11,353 nt of DNA from Candidatus Latescibacterota bacterium (lineage in GTDB: Bacteria > JAAXHH01 > JABIQT01). Made by a program: the position numbers and the translations under genes. Below are positions 658-8,147 of the stretch, one piece after another (the first letter of the stretch is position 1; each line of letters opens with the position of its first letter). The notes beneath the pieces are model-generated. The model did not search any database and was not told the DNA's origin. It saw nothing but the letters and a program-made list of their open reading frames with translations. Location: positions 1 to 11,353 of the forward strand of contig JABIQT010000600.1 of NCBI GenBank assembly GCA_018667995.1, in the 5' to 3' direction.

Positions 658-772
658 TGATTTTGTCCGATGGATGTCATACTCATGGGTCCTGTAAGTC
701 GTCGGGAAATGTAGCCGTAGCGGCAGTTCCTACGCACAGATTGGGCGTCTTGCATCTGCAAATGATAGATTG

Positions 773-1984
773 TCAAGAGATCAGGTGTCGAAGAGTCTCG
801 TCGATGTGCTTTTTCAGATACACAGTAAATGGCGTACCGCCGGTACCTACTGCAGATTTCCGTGAACCGTCAGCGGGCTTGATGATGTAGAGGGCCGCGT
901 ATTCGATATGGAGCTTTCGGAACTCGTAGAGAGTTTTGACGCACTCGTTATAGACATCCCGGAGATCGTGATTTCCTGATTGCAGAATGAAGTTTCTTAC
1001 GGAAGGTCCTGTTTCTATGGCCTCAATGAACGCTCTATCAGCCATGGGCATGTAGTCACGCATTTCGTTGAGATAGGCCCTCATTGCATCGTGTTCGTGT
1101 GCGATGCCGAGTATGGCGTCAAAGGCGTAGATCACACTGCTCTGGGCCCCCGTCTCCCCTCGGAATTCCCTGGGTTGCTCGTGATATGCGTTTACCCCTT
1201 CGTAGACCATCCCCCCTGGAAGATCTGGATTGTCCTTCCAACCGAACATATAGGGGCGTACCCGGTGGTAGTAGGTATTGGGGTCACAGCGCTCAGGCAT
1301 ACGTAGCAGCACTGTCTTTGCAGCCACCAGAGAAGCTGCTATCTCCGCGAGGCAATGCGAAAGTTTCCCGGTGTTCTCATCTGTCACGGCCTGTTGTGCC
1401 CAGGGCAACACCTTAAGCCCGCGTCCGGCTTCTGCTTCGATATTTACGTGGAGTGTGACGAACCACTCCTCATCCATGCCGCCCAGGAAATTCTGAATCA
1501 TTGCCAGATTGCCTACAGCCACGGGACCATCTGGATCGAGCCGTCGCCAGTTGTACAAGACCTGTCCGGCATAGGCAAGCATGGGTGGTCGGTGGAGGTG
1601 GGTAGCAACTGTATGCCAGGCTACCGCGAGGTTTCTCGGCAGGCGGGTAGCCGTAATGTGATCAGGGGCAAATACGTAGAGATTAGCCATGAAGGATAAC
1701 ATGGTCATGGCGCGCTCCCAGGACGATTCCGTTACCAGAGAGTCTGATGGAAACGGTGGAAGGGCCTCAACAGTAGGACGGATATGTTGGCTCAGGGCTA
1801 GTTTCGACAGGTCCTGGGCGGTCTCCTCCCAGACATCGAATGCATCAGATAGGCGCAACAGCGGGTCTTCCGGCGGTAGGAAGCCTCGGGAAAAATCTCG
1901 GTCCATGAAGGTTGTGTAGGATGACATGATGCGGGAAGTGTTACGGGTTGTCGTTTGGGGGCTCGGACACCCTCGTAGATTCAT
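773..1984 (-). CDS. Indoleamine 2,3-dioxygenase family heme protein
   Basis: The product (403 residues, or 384 from ATG 1927) aligns by recall along nearly the whole of human IDO1, which is also 403 residues. Matching blocks include RLPRNLAVAW (114-123), PPMLAYAGQVLYNW (133-146), GWKDNP..GGMVYEG (248-263), GQSS-like AQSSV (280-284), MRDYMP (308-313), PSVRNFILQSG (327-337) and GTGGT (380-384). His359 in RKLHIEY matches the proximal heme ligand His346 of IDO1. Arg243 matches Arg231, while the paired active-site Phe226/Phe227 are Tyr238/Tyr239 here. IDO enzymes open the indole ring of tryptophan with O2 to give N-formylkynurenine. No other kynurenine-pathway gene is in the window, so whether it degrades tryptophan or acts on another indole is open. 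Start 1984 has AGG six bases upstream; ATG 1927 is a plausible alternative because the first 19 residues resemble nothing in the family. Confidence 0.9.
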   Translation of the reverse strand: MNLRGCPSPQTTTRNTSRIMSSYTTFMDRDFSRGFLPPEDPLLRLSDAFDVWEETAQDLSKLALSQHIRPTVEALPPFPSDSLVTESSWERAMTMLSFMANLYVFAPDHITATRLPRNLAVAWHTVATHLHRPPMLAYAGQVLYNWRRLDPDGPVAVGNLAMIQNFLGGMDEEWFVTLHVNIEAEAGRGLKVLPWAQQAVTDENTGKLSHCLAEIAASLVAAKTVLLRMPERCDPNTYYHRVRPYMFGWKDNPDLPGGMVYEGVNAYHEQPREFRGETGAQSSVIYAFDAILGIAHEHDAMRAYLNEMRDYMPMADRAFIEAIETGPSVRNFILQSGNHDLRDVYNECVKTLYEFRKLHIEYAALYIIKPADGSRKSAVGTGGTPFTVYLKKHIDETLRHLIS

Positions 1985-2087
1985 TTAACCTGGTTGTCAG
2001 TTTGCCACTGTGGAGCGTATGCGTCAAGGTAATATGTGCCTTCGGTGATCAGCGGAATCGCCGCTGGGCCGCTACGGAGAATTGGTG

Positions 2088-2117
2088 TTGACAAAGTATT
2101 CGTGTCTGGACTATGAT
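2088..2117 (+). promoter_or_regulatory. Sigma-70-type promoter of the small lipoprotein gene
   Basis: A perfect -35 TTGACA (2088-2093) is followed by an 18-base spacer and TATGAT (2112-2117), five of six matches to the -10 consensus. Transcription would start near 2124, about 39 bases before the ATG at 2163. A GGAGA Shine-Dalgarno (2152-2156) precedes that ATG. It is the best promoter match I found in the window. Confidence 0.7.
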
Positions 2118-2162
2118 TGATCCACCACTACCAAATTCACAATCGAAAGACGGAGAATCACT

Positions 2163-2684
2163 ATGCCCCCTACGAATATCTCAATAATCCTTGTAACGTT
2201 CTTCGCGCTGGCTGTGGTAGTCGGCGGATGTAATTCCCCAGGCGAGGCGCCGTCCGCGACGACGCCATCCGCGAATCAAGAGATTGATCGCCGCTCCTAT
2301 GATCTGGGAGTGATCGGGGCGTTTGCCGAAATGGTGGGAGTAGGCGTCAAGAAAATGGCTTTGAGCGCCACACTGACTCCCGATGCTGCCGATGCTCTCG
2401 AAGAAGAGGCGGGAAAGATAGCTGAGCGCAACGGCGCCATGATCTACCGCGAATCGGATTTCCTGGTGACAGATCTCTTCCCGGCTTCTGTAACAGAAGG
2501 AAAGCACGTCTTCGTTATCTACAGTGGCTCCACGCTAGAGGAATACCTCGCCCTCAAATCTGAAAAGAAGAAGCTGGTGGATGCTGGGCAGTATGAGGGC
2601 ATGAGCCGTAGAGCGATCGCACAAGGTATGGGCGTACTACTTAGCTATCCAGAACAGAAGATCGAAGAAATGCTTACGGACTAA
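2163..2684 (+). CDS. Small secreted lipoprotein of unknown function
   Basis: The gene encodes 173 residues. The first 23 form a lipoprotein signal: a hydrophobic stretch from Ile7 to Val20 ending in VGGC, with Cys23 as the lipidation site. Asn at +2 gives no inner-membrane retention signal, so outer-membrane anchoring is the default guess. A Ser/Pro/Thr/Ala-rich linker (24-39) leads to a mixed alpha/beta region. The centre (about 70-88) is acidic and helical; 100-122 holds strand-like segments such as HVFVIYSG; the end (123-173) is charged and helical. I do not recognise the family and see no catalytic motif. It has its own promoter and a GGAGA ribosome site. It diverges from the indoleamine dioxygenase gene and converges on the VOC lipoprotein gene. 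Confidence 0.8.
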   Translation: MPPTNISIILVTFFALAVVVGGCNSPGEAPSATTPSANQEIDRRSYDLGVIGAFAEMVGVGVKKMALSATLTPDAADALEEEAGKIAERNGAMIYRESDFLVTDLFPASVTEGKHVFVIYSGSTLEEYLALKSEKKKLVDAGQYEGMSRRAIAQGMGVLLSYPEQKIEEMLTD

Positions 2685-2742
2685 TCAGTTCACCCATCGA
2701 TCTACAGCATCATCGTGTATGGTGATTCCGGTACCTGATGTG

Positions 2743-3829: not shown

Positions 3830-4393
3830 TCAAACATTGGTGGCGTCGGGATCATCCCAGAACTCTTCAATTTCTACACCTAATCCGTCGATTGTTCGAT
3901 TGCACCAGGCAAAATATCCGGTGATCTGGTTGATCTCGAAGATCGCTTTGTCTCCGAATCCACTCGTTCGGAGCCGTAGGACATCGTTCTCATTTACGGA
4001 AACGGGTTTGATGGTCAACTTTCGTACGTAATCGAGCATTGCACGGTCCGGCGGCGTAAGTTCTGCGTCACGATAGTCTCTCTTAATGATCTCCACCCAA
4101 TCGGTATCGCCTGTTTCTCTGAGGAGTCCCTCCCCATGATGACGCACTCAGTACTCGCATTCATTGAGGACCGACACCGTCACGGCGATCATTTCGCGCT
4201 GGGCCAGCGATAGATCGCAGTCTCCATGCATCAGCCCTTTATAGAAGACCATCAACGAACGCAGTGCGGCCATATTCAGGCTGTGTGCTTTGATGATGTT
4301 ATCCACGCCGCCCCAGGATCGTTGTGTGTCTTTGTAAATCTTGGCGAGTGGGCCTGTGGCCTCGCCCTCGTTTATGGTCTTTATCCATGCCAT
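3830..4393 (-). CDS. AhpD-family peroxidase-related selenoprotein with in-frame TGA read as selenocysteine
   Basis: Read straight through one TGA (4148-4150), this frame gives 187 residues, the usual length of AhpD/CMD-fold peroxidase-related enzymes. Residues 1-81 and 83-187 are in the same phase with no gap. The TGA lies in NECEY-TGA-VRHHGE, exactly where the family has the second Cys of CxxC. The AhpD catalytic set is complete: Glu67, Cys79, Sec82 and His86, with the same spacing as Glu118, Cys130, Cys133 and His137 of mycobacterial AhpD. Such proteins reduce hydroperoxides through the thiol pair; Sec would replace the attacking residue. A SECIS-like hairpin follows the TGA. TGA ends several other genes here, including this one, so genome-wide recoding is unlikely. 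AAGGAG (4399-4404) precedes ATG 4393, whereas no ribosome site precedes the GTG just after the TGA. The gene lies 45 bp after the PhyH gene and 94 bp before the VOC gene. AhpD-like selenoproteins were previously reported from marine metagenomes. A nonsense mutation is the main alternative. Confidence 0.88.
4121..4135 (-). promoter_or_regulatory. Candidate bacterial SECIS hairpin
   Basis: Twelve bases after the UGA the minus-strand RNA reads GGGGAG-GGA-CUCCUC. This folds into a six-pair stem (five Watson-Crick and one G-U) with a GGA loop. The loop begins 18 nt after the UGA and its first base is G. Both points fit the published bacterial SECIS rule (loop about 16-37 nt from the UGA, G among the first two loop bases). 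No clear lower stem was found. The bases also encode a conserved part of the protein, so part of the pairing could be coincidental. Confidence 0.65.
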
Positions 4394-4398
4394 GAAGG

Positions 4399-4404
4399 CT
4401 CCTT
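4399..4404 (-). promoter_or_regulatory. Ribosome binding site of the selenoprotein
   Basis: AAGGAG on the minus strand stands five bases before ATG 4393. The second half of the gene, after the TGA, has no such site, which supports translation of both halves from this single start. Confidence 0.75.
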
Positions 4405-5444: not shown

Positions 5445-5558
5445 CTGTACATGAAATACAACGAATTATATACTCGGATACCACGGACATCAAGAAGGTG
5501 GCTACGGGGGCTCGACATCCTACTGTACGCTCTGAAACGATCTCAGAAGGGGCCGTTC

Positions 5559-6764
5559 ATGGTTGACTTGCATACGCACGATTCCGACGGATATTCTCGT
5601 CGAGGATTTCTGAAGAGCGCTTTAGCTTCGGCAGGCCTGATCACCGTCAGCCAATACGAGGCTGCCGCTCAGATGTTGGGAGGTACCGGCGGGCGTGATG
5701 TCCAGGGCTGGGGTGTCTCTCCAGGCACCGTCCAACTCAGCGGCAACGAAAATGCGCTGGGTCCGTCGCCCCGAGCTGTAGATGCTATTCTCGATACCAC
5801 CTATAGTATTAACCGATATGATCTTGCGCCCGACCTCTATGGGAACATCGCCCGTCGCCACGGACTGCCCGTGGTGGATGTGACCAGCCAATTCGAATTG
5901 CCTGCCGATGCCTGGCTGGCCGTCGGAGCCGGATCTTCGGACATTCTGACTGCCATAGCCCATGCCTATTTCGGTAATGGCGGGGAGTTGGTTGAAGTGA
6001 GCCCTGGCTTCGGGTTCATGGCCAGATTGGCGAACCAGAAGGGGCTCAATGTGGTTTCGGTGCCGCTGGCAGATGACTACGGTCCGGACCTGGTAGCCAT
6101 GCAGGCTGCGATTACCGAAAAGACGCAGTTGGTCGTGGTGACCACACCCGGCAATCCCAATGGGCGGTTGACGCCCATCAGTGCTCTGAAGCCATTCGTA
6201 GAATCGATACCGTCCGAAGTTTTGATATTGGTTGATGAGGCTTACATTGATTTCTGCCGCCAGCCTGGCGATAGAATAGGCGCGGCTCCTCTGATAGCTG
6301 ATCATCCGAATCTCATCGTCACGCGTACTTTCTCCAAGGTATTCGGCATGGCAGGAATGCGTGTGGGATATGCCTTGGCACAACCAGATGTGATTAACCG
6401 GATTAACGAAAATAGGGCGAATACACTGAGCATTCTTTCTGGCTATGCGGCTGCAGCGGCGTTGAAAGATCATGATTTTGTACGCCGATCACAGGAGCTG
6501 GTGCATAGCGGTAAGGATTACTTCTACAGCCAAATGGACGCGCTGGGTGTCGAGTATGTCCGTAGCGAATCCAGTTTCGTGCTCATCAACCTGCGACGTG
6601 ATGTGGACACTGTGGTCGATACCTTAGCTAAAGACCATGATGTCTGGGTCGCCAACGCTAAGCAGAGGTGGGGCATGGATACGTTCATTCGTGTGACTGC
6701 CGGTCTGCCCGAAGAGAATGAAGCATTCGTAGAAGCCTTCAAAAAAGTACTCGTTAAGAGCTGA
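5559..6764 (+). CDS. Tat-exported HisC-like PLP aminotransferase, copy 1
   Basis: The product is 401 residues from ATG 5559, which has AGAAGGGG (5545-5552) six bases upstream. An ATG at 5451 in the same frame lacks a ribosome site and would bury the signal peptide. The N-terminus carries a twin-arginine signal, SRRGFLK (Arg14-Arg15), then a hydrophobic Ala/Gly-rich stretch with likely cleavage near AAAQ (35-38). The mature part is a fold-type I aminotransferase of the histidinol-phosphate aminotransferase group: GNENALGPSP, PGNPNG (Asn199), VDEAY (Asp226, Tyr229), TFSKVFGMAGMR with PLP Lys260 and phosphate-binding Arg268, and near the end IRVTAGLPEEN, whose Arg fits the substrate-carboxylate ligand. 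Tat export fits an enzyme that folds around PLP before secretion. True histidine synthesis outside the cytoplasm is unlikely, so the substrate is probably another amine. The paralogue lies 171 bp downstream. Confidence 0.87.
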   Translation: MVDLHTHDSDGYSRRGFLKSALASAGLITVSQYEAAAQMLGGTGGRDVQGWGVSPGTVQLSGNENALGPSPRAVDAILDTTYSINRYDLAPDLYGNIARRHGLPVVDVTSQFELPADAWLAVGAGSSDILTAIAHAYFGNGGELVEVSPGFGFMARLANQKGLNVVSVPLADDYGPDLVAMQAAITEKTQLVVVTTPGNPNGRLTPISALKPFVESIPSEVLILVDEAYIDFCRQPGDRIGAAPLIADHPNLIVTRTFSKVFGMAGMRVGYALAQPDVINRINENRANTLSILSGYAAAAALKDHDFVRRSQELVHSGKDYFYSQMDALGVEYVRSESSFVLINLRRDVDTVVDTLAKDHDVWVANAKQRWGMDTFIRVTAGLPEENEAFVEAFKKVLVKS

Positions 6765-6905
6765 TGCTTCACACGGGCGGCGTCATAGATTCTCGTTTCC
6801 CGATATAGGTGGAGGGTTGGTTGTAAACACAGGTGTCGTATTGAGGTAAAGATCGTTGTTTCAAAGGATGATTGAATTTGGTAGTTGTTCTCTTACCCCC
6901 CACTC

Positions 6906-6923
6906 TCGGGGTTTGCGCCCCGA
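6906..6923 (+). promoter_or_regulatory. Small hairpin abutting the ribosome site of aminotransferase copy 2
   Basis: TCGGGG (6906-6911) pairs perfectly with CCCCGA (6918-6923) across the loop TTTGCG. The 3' end of the stem touches the AAAGGAG Shine-Dalgarno (6923-6929), so the fold could tune access to the start codon. It has no T-tract and is not a terminator. Whether it acts in vivo is unknown. Confidence 0.3.
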
Positions 6924-6935
6924 AAGGAGACGAAC

Positions 6936-8147
6936 ATGTCAGACAGCAAGAAGCGTGAAATTGGTGCGGGTTTCTCCCGCCGTGGATTCCTGAAGGGCGC
7001 CATAGCCGGCGCTGGTGTCGCGGCATTCGGCCTGCGTGAAGCTGCGGCGCAGATGCTCCAGGGCCCCAGTGCCCAGCCTGTGCGTGGCTGGGGCGTACCA
7101 CCAGGACTCGTAAGATTGAGCGGCAACGAGATGCCTATCGGCCCATCACCGCGCGCGGTAGAGGCTATCATGAAAGTCCTCTATTCGTTCAACCGGTACG
7201 GCCGAGTGTCTGAGATTTACGAGAAAGTTACCCGTATGCACGGTTTGCCCGTACCTGATATGTCTAACGTCCCATTTGGCGGTCCGCCGAATTCCTGGGT
7301 CACATTTGGCGCCGGTTCCTCAGAGGTCCTTTTTGCGGCGGCATCGGCTTTTCTTCGTGACGGCGGAGAAACCATCGAAGCCACACCAGGTTATGGAAAT
7401 ATCTCGGAAATGGGCGTTGGGTTTGGCGCAAAGCCAGTATTTGTACCAGTCAGAAGCGATTTCTCACATGACCTTCCGGCCATGAAGAAAGCCATAAACA
7501 GCAATACCAAGATGATTATCCTTACTTCGCCAGGTAATCCTACCGGCGTGTTGATACCCTATGAGGAACTCAAGGCGTTTGTCGCATCCATCCCGCCAGA
7601 GATCATCGTCTTTTCCGATGAAGCGTATATCGATTTCGCGCGCTCCCCTGAGGACCGGATCGGTGCGGCACCTCTCATCAAGGATCATCCAAACCTGATC
7701 GTGGCACGGACGTTCTCGAAGATCTATGGAATGGCCGGACTGGGTATTGGATATGGCCTTGCCCAGCCCGCGATGATCAAGACGTTGAATCTGAACAAAG
7801 GTGGCCGCGTTAATATGCTGTCGCTGCATGCGGCCAATGCCGCCCTGGACGATCATGACTACATCGCTTATGCTCGCGAAGTTACCAGCAACGGCAAAGA
7901 ATTCTTTGCAGAGAAATTCAAAGAGATGGGACTCGAGTACGTTCCTAGTGAGTCGAGTTTCATGCTGGTCAACATCAAGAAAGACGCCGACGAGGTGTGC
8001 CGAAAACTCGAGCAGGAATATCGCGTTATCGTCGGCAACGGGAATGCTCGTTGGGGTATGAAGACCTGGTTGCGTGTAACCGCCGGGTTACCCGAAGAGA
8101 ATGAAGCCTTCATGGCGGCGCTGCAGAAGGTTCTTGTTAGCAGTTAG
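6936..8147 (+). CDS. Tat-exported HisC-like PLP aminotransferase, copy 2
   Basis: The product is 403 residues from ATG 6936, which has AAAGGAG (6923-6929) six bases upstream. The frame also stays open to a TTG at 6885 that has no such support. It parallels copy 1 along its whole length, with about half the positions identical by eye. It has the Tat motif SRRGFLK (Arg15-Arg16), a signal ending near AAAQ, SGNEMPIGPSP, PGNPTG (Asn201), SDEAY (Asp228, Tyr231), TFSKIYGMAG with PLP Lys262, and LRVTAGLPEEN at the end. The clear difference is Gly270 (codon 7743-7745), where copy 1 and HisC enzymes have the Arg that grips the PLP phosphate. The enzyme may bind PLP more weakly or use a changed active site. 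It is probably co-transcribed with copy 1 and ends before a strong terminator. Confidence 0.87.
   Translation: MSDSKKREIGAGFSRRGFLKGAIAGAGVAAFGLREAAAQMLQGPSAQPVRGWGVPPGLVRLSGNEMPIGPSPRAVEAIMKVLYSFNRYGRVSEIYEKVTRMHGLPVPDMSNVPFGGPPNSWVTFGAGSSEVLFAAASAFLRDGGETIEATPGYGNISEMGVGFGAKPVFVPVRSDFSHDLPAMKKAINSNTKMIILTSPGNPTGVLIPYEELKAFVASIPPEIIVFSDEAYIDFARSPEDRIGAAPLIKDHPNLIVARTFSKIYGMAGLGIGYGLAQPAMIKTLNLNKGGRVNMLSLHAANAALDDHDYIAYAREVTSNGKEFFAEKFKEMGLEYVPSESSFMLVNIKKDADEVCRKLEQEYRVIVGNGNARWGMKTWLRVTAGLPEENEAFMAALQKVLVSS

Follow-up and report, generated by a model that had tools for sequence, protein, structure and literature searches.

An AhpD-like gene with a conserved in-frame UGA in its CxxU motif in Candidatus Latescibacterota, and a putative two-part selenocysteine synthase

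We analyzed an 11,353-nucleotide stretch of DNA (hereafter the window) from a Candidatus Latescibacterota metagenome-assembled genome (MAG; G000, 6.06 Mb in 1165 contigs, 85% complete). The window carries an AhpD-like gene that almost certainly encodes a selenoprotein, a probable thiol/selenol peroxidase, with UGA codon 82 read as selenocysteine (Sec) at the position from which AhpD attacks peroxide (Table 1). Sequence comparison supports an intact frame, membership of the family, a conserved UGA, cysteine equivalents in homologues and Sec machinery in the lineage.

The codons of the gene run from 4393 to 3833 on the minus strand, and its terminator (3832-3830) is also TGA. As the first-pass annotation had stated, the sole internal stop is a TGA at the second residue of the CxxC motif (4150-4148), and E67, C79, U82 and H86 lie where it had placed them. 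A ribosome-binding site precedes the first start alone: AAGGAG stands before the ATG, and nothing similar was found before the GTG that follows the TGA. TGA terminates four of the seven other main open reading frames (ORFs) checked in the window, as well as the AhpD-like gene itself, and is thus an ordinary stop here, as had also been proposed. The flanking genes encode VOC/glyoxalase and PhyH proteins without apparent links to selenium, and the up- and downstream neighbours differ among the relatives inspected; we therefore left the neighbourhood out of the argument. Elsewhere, the window encodes a bacterial indoleamine 2,3-dioxygenase (773-1984, minus strand; PF01231, 343 bits) and, on the plus strand, two adjoining PF00155 aminotransferases (5451-6764 and 6885-8147) with a twin-arginine-like N terminus, SRRGFLK, apparently a tandem duplication.

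Table 1 Features of the window and of related loci
Feature	Position	Strand	Location	Details
AhpD-like (TIGR01926) selenoprotein gene	3830..4393	minus	window	187 codons + TGA terminator; profile match; AlphaFold model
In-frame TGA, codon 82, second residue of CEYU redox motif	4148..4150	minus	window	TGA in 12/12 orthologues
Ribosome-binding site AAGGAG	4399..4404	minus	window	5 nt ahead of ATG
Candidate bacterial SECIS hairpin UGGGGAG-GGA-CUCCUCA	4120..4136	minus	window	7 bp; loop 18 nt past UGA
AhpD-like paralogue L003, CVYU	673-1299		G000:C870	TGA; passes TIGR01926
AhpD-like paralogue L004, CHYU	1309-1935		G000:C484	TGA; passes TIGR01926
SelA1 of MAG (L006)	1492-2685		G000:C455	
SelA2 of MAG (L282 = L007)	1173-2552	minus	G000:C499	
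SelA loci of relatives				L209-L220, L224; L221, L223, L227, L237-L247

With the TGA read through, the protein matched the TIGR01926 'peroxidase-related enzyme' profile over residues 2-173 (139.7 bits; cut-off 81.8) and the Pfam CMD domain PF02627 (39.7 bits; cut-off 23). It is a full-length TIGR01926 member, in keeping with the earlier suggestion that 187 residues fits the family. The spacing is that of TIGR01926/AhpD-like 1, with Glu 12 residues before the first Cys and His four after the second CxxC/CxxU residue, and the columns of E67, C79, residue 82 and H86 were invariant in alignments of 17 and of 30 sequences. An AlphaFold model, built from 30 aligned sequences with Cys in place of Sec, adopted the all-helical AhpD/CMD fold (mean pLDDT 95.4, pTM 0.91). 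The top PDB sequence matches were 2pfx, 3c1l and 6k40, and the same three entries gave the best fold matches to the model, 6k40 superposing with a TM-score of 0.88 at 1.8 Å.

We then examined conservation of the TGA codon. A search of 59 genomes yielded 12 full-length orthologues (71-79% identity), which belong to two further genera within the order; each has a single TGA, always at CEYU. Among the best 80 homologues from GTDB species genomes, the codon aligned to position 82 was TGA in 72, TGC in six, TGT in two and nothing else, and E67, C79 and H86 were retained in all 80. The record titles of these homologues name Marinimicrobia, Chloroflexi, Acidobacteria, Planctomycetota, Gemmatimonadota, Bacillota and others. 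Since the scan scores query residue 82 as Cys, any bias should favour Cys. The in-frame UGA thus aligns with a conserved Cys, as is typical of bacterial selenoproteins: the eight Sec-less homologues carry Cys there, a check that the first-pass annotation had proposed, and the unrelated stops that it had named as a possible objection were absent from codon 82, where only TGA or Cys occurs. Against the nearest orthologue, dN/dS (Nei-Gojobori) was 0.036 before the TGA and 0.074 after it, values that are approximate because dS is high (1.4 and 2.8). Purifying selection therefore acts on the codons on both sides. The TGA is unchanged in 13 orthologues despite near-saturated synonymous sites against most of them. 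Together with the selection on both flanks, this invariance argues that the TGA is not there by chance, and we infer that Sec is inserted at codon 82.

We searched the MAG for the Sec machinery, as the first-pass annotation had recommended, and this check was borne out in part: selA (contig C455, 486 bits) and selD (contig C1058, L022, minus strand, 367 bits) were present, and selB and selC were not found. The MAG selD has an in-frame TGA within a CGU motif, so SelD is probably itself a selenoprotein. No selB scored over the profile cut-off and no tRNA-Sec passed in the contigs of this 85% complete assembly. Two selB candidates (C439 and C1023) proved to be CysN-like sulfate adenylyltransferase subunits, each adjoined by a CysD-like gene, and the tRNA-Sec candidates were Ser and Leu tRNAs. 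The earlier objection from missing Sec genes had been framed for a complete genome and does not extend to a MAG of this completeness. The phylum sample comprised 16 genomes, all from one order, and 13 of the 15 relatives encode both selB and a tRNA-Sec (68-72 bits, anticodon UCA); all 13 also bear the AhpD-like selenoprotein gene or a paralogue. Of the other two, G011 has selB alone, located at the end of a contig, and G015 has no selB over the cut-off. In most relatives, for example G001, G002 and G005, selB adjoins tRNA-Sec (~40-170 nt apart where inspected), so a single gap could have cost the MAG both genes, and their absence is likely an assembly gap.

The MAG contains two more AhpD-like genes that pass TIGR01926 and have a TGA in CxxU (Table 1), and the genome search returned a further AhpD-like candidate on contig C496. 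Same-order relatives have one to four TGA-bearing AhpD-like genes each. The lineage of the window gene thus has several AhpD-like selenoproteins in each genome.

These data bear on two other accounts of the TGA. If it were a nonsense mutation in a pseudogene, or a sequencing miscall, the frame would consist of ORFs of 81 and 105 codons, as it does whenever Sec is not read, and a MAG without selB and selC would suit this account. Standard annotation would indeed split this functional gene or label it a pseudogene. Neither decay nor a miscall, however, would keep TGA at one catalytic codon across genera and phyla with purifying selection on both flanks; we discarded both readings on the conservation of the TGA and give them next to no chance. 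Decoding of UGA as Cys, Trp or another standard amino acid could likewise draw on the lack of selB and tRNA-Sec in the assembled contigs, but homologues without the TGA all carry Cys, which is the analogue of Sec, and the MAG encodes both selA and selD, the latter with a TGA of its own. Such decoding is highly improbable.

Sec insertion at codon 82 being by far the preferred reading, a further question is which substrate the selenoprotein reduces. In Mycobacterium tuberculosis AhpD, the second CxxC residue attacks peroxide, the first resolves, and a Glu/His pair relays the proton. By analogy, Sec82 would be the nucleophile in place of the attacking Cys of AhpD, C79 its resolving partner, and E67 and H86 the proton relay. 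Sec at this position may plausibly raise peroxidase reactivity, as the first reading had supposed. A selenoprotein of the same fold acting on something other than peroxide, such as a reductive dehalogenase or another Sec/Cys reductase, is a less probable but serious alternative, to which we would give a minority share. AhpD/CMD fold matches include the debrominase Bmp8 (6ohi; 6ohj is its C82A variant), and the several diverged Sec paralogues per genome suggest distinct substrates. Nevertheless, by both sequence and structure the protein is closest to AhpD-like peroxidase-related proteins, and it keeps the relay residues E67 and H86, which favours peroxide as the probable substrate.

Folding predictions include a 7-bp hairpin downstream of the UGA, both for the window gene and for the majority of its orthologues, though not for every one. 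SelB would bring Sec-tRNA to codon 82 guided by this hairpin. Synonymous changes are absent from codons 87, 88 and 90-92 across 13 orthologues; in a block-wise test, synonymous conservation at the hairpin gave p ~0.04, with codons 150-157 more conserved. Relative to synonymous reshuffles, folding of the downstream region was slightly more stable in the 72 TGA homologues (mean z -0.60), the corresponding value in the eight Cys homologues being 0.05. This modest statistical support is supportive of a SECIS element, not proof of one. An Rfam scan of the gene region returned a single chance match, which we dismissed.

Analysis of the selA genes revealed two paralogues, SelA1 and SelA2, which occur together in 14 of the 16 phylum genomes (G000, G002-G010 and G012-G015). 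SelA1 scored 485-506 bits in these 14 genomes and matched the SelA profile only from position 58-72 onward, with ~10-21 residues between the likely start codon and the core (13 measured); the lysine of the SGDK motif is kept in all 14. The N-terminal domain PF12390 had no Pfam match in the MAG SelA1. We also looked for a hidden, frameshifted N-terminal domain with a custom profile, whose positive controls were members of its training set, and detected none on scanning every frame around the 14 SelA1 loci. SelA2, found in the same 14 genomes and G001, is a full-length SelA-like protein (155-351 bits, profile positions about 2-454); PF12390 scored 25.7 and 49.1 bits in the two tested (cut-off 22). 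The PLP-binding SGDK lysine is absent from all 15 SelA2 proteins, with Gly instead in 14. G011 has only a C-terminal SelA2-like fragment at a contig end. Both paralogues are present in G002 and G007, assemblies of 7 and 9 contigs, so a binning error is unlikely. The control set was 40 genomes from other phyla in which SelA was matched; 37 of them encode a single full-length SelA. The exceptions are G070 (at a contig edge), G091 (in two frames) and G095, where ~77 residues do precede the core.

Of 74 columns invariant across 17 canonical SelA proteins, 68 are retained in the SelA1 majority and 36 in that of SelA2. Mean identity to canonical SelA in the catalytic part was 43-45% for SelA1 and 24-34% for SelA2 (49% among canonical proteins); in the N-terminal part it was 20-32% for SelA2 (27% among canonical proteins). 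These figures suggest that the half retained by one paralogue is relaxed in, or missing from, the other. Canonical SelA, SelA1 and SelA2 each formed one group in a phylogenetic tree (96/88, 100/99 and 100/100). As the tree has no outgroup and SelA2 forms a long branch, it is not informative on a sister relationship between the two paralogues. The SelA2 genes of the MAG and G013 are each flanked by a TIGR04282-type glycosyltransferase on one side and a class II aldolase-like gene on the other; the glycosyltransferase, of the arsenosugar type, scored 192.6 bits in the MAG (L282 2533-3270, minus strand, G000:C499; also L283).

On the strength of these sequence patterns, we lean slightly toward a two-component selenocysteine synthase, a heteromeric complex in which SelA1 would be catalytic and SelA2 would bind tRNA-Sec. 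SelA1, having lost the tRNA-Sec-binding N-terminal domain, would supply the active site; SelA2, with its PLP lysine and a large part of its active site gone, would supply the tRNA-binding domain; and the complex would make Sec-tRNA for AhpD-like and other selenoproteins. The competing explanations are that SelA1 acts alone with altered tRNA recognition and that SelA2 now serves a different function. We found no report of a full-length, lysine-less SelA paralogue in the literature searched (open-licence PMC papers). A two-component arrangement, if true, would mean that tRNA binding and catalysis are naturally divided between two selenocysteine synthase proteins, which could help studies of mechanism and the engineering of Sec incorporation.

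Finally, we compared the window protein with known systems. It resembles Deinococcus radiodurans AhpD-like 6k40, Mesorhizobium Mlr4105 (3c1l) and Silicibacter 2pfx in fold (TM 0.83-0.88) and in sequence over the full length (30-34% identity in structural alignments), whereas these proteins bear Cys at the position of its predicted Sec. Two related AhpD-domain families, the NF041238 AhpD-related and NF053654 YciW-related (seleno)proteins as NCBI names them, are distinct from it, as it scored far under both cut-offs (43.8 vs 175 and 23.5 vs 310). AhpD-like selenoproteins were already known, as the first-pass annotation had noted: Zhang and Gladyshev (2008) listed 'AhpD-like 1, COG2128, CxxU' in the GOS survey, counting 299 Sec-containing and 902 Cys-containing forms (PMC2398784), and a 2026 review lists 'AhpD-like protein, TIGR01926, CxxU' (PMC13188914). 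The window protein shares with AhpD-like 1 the family, the Sec position in CxxU and the existence of Cys homologues, and differs in host lineage; the window gene adds to this known CxxU family (PMC2398784, PMC13188914).
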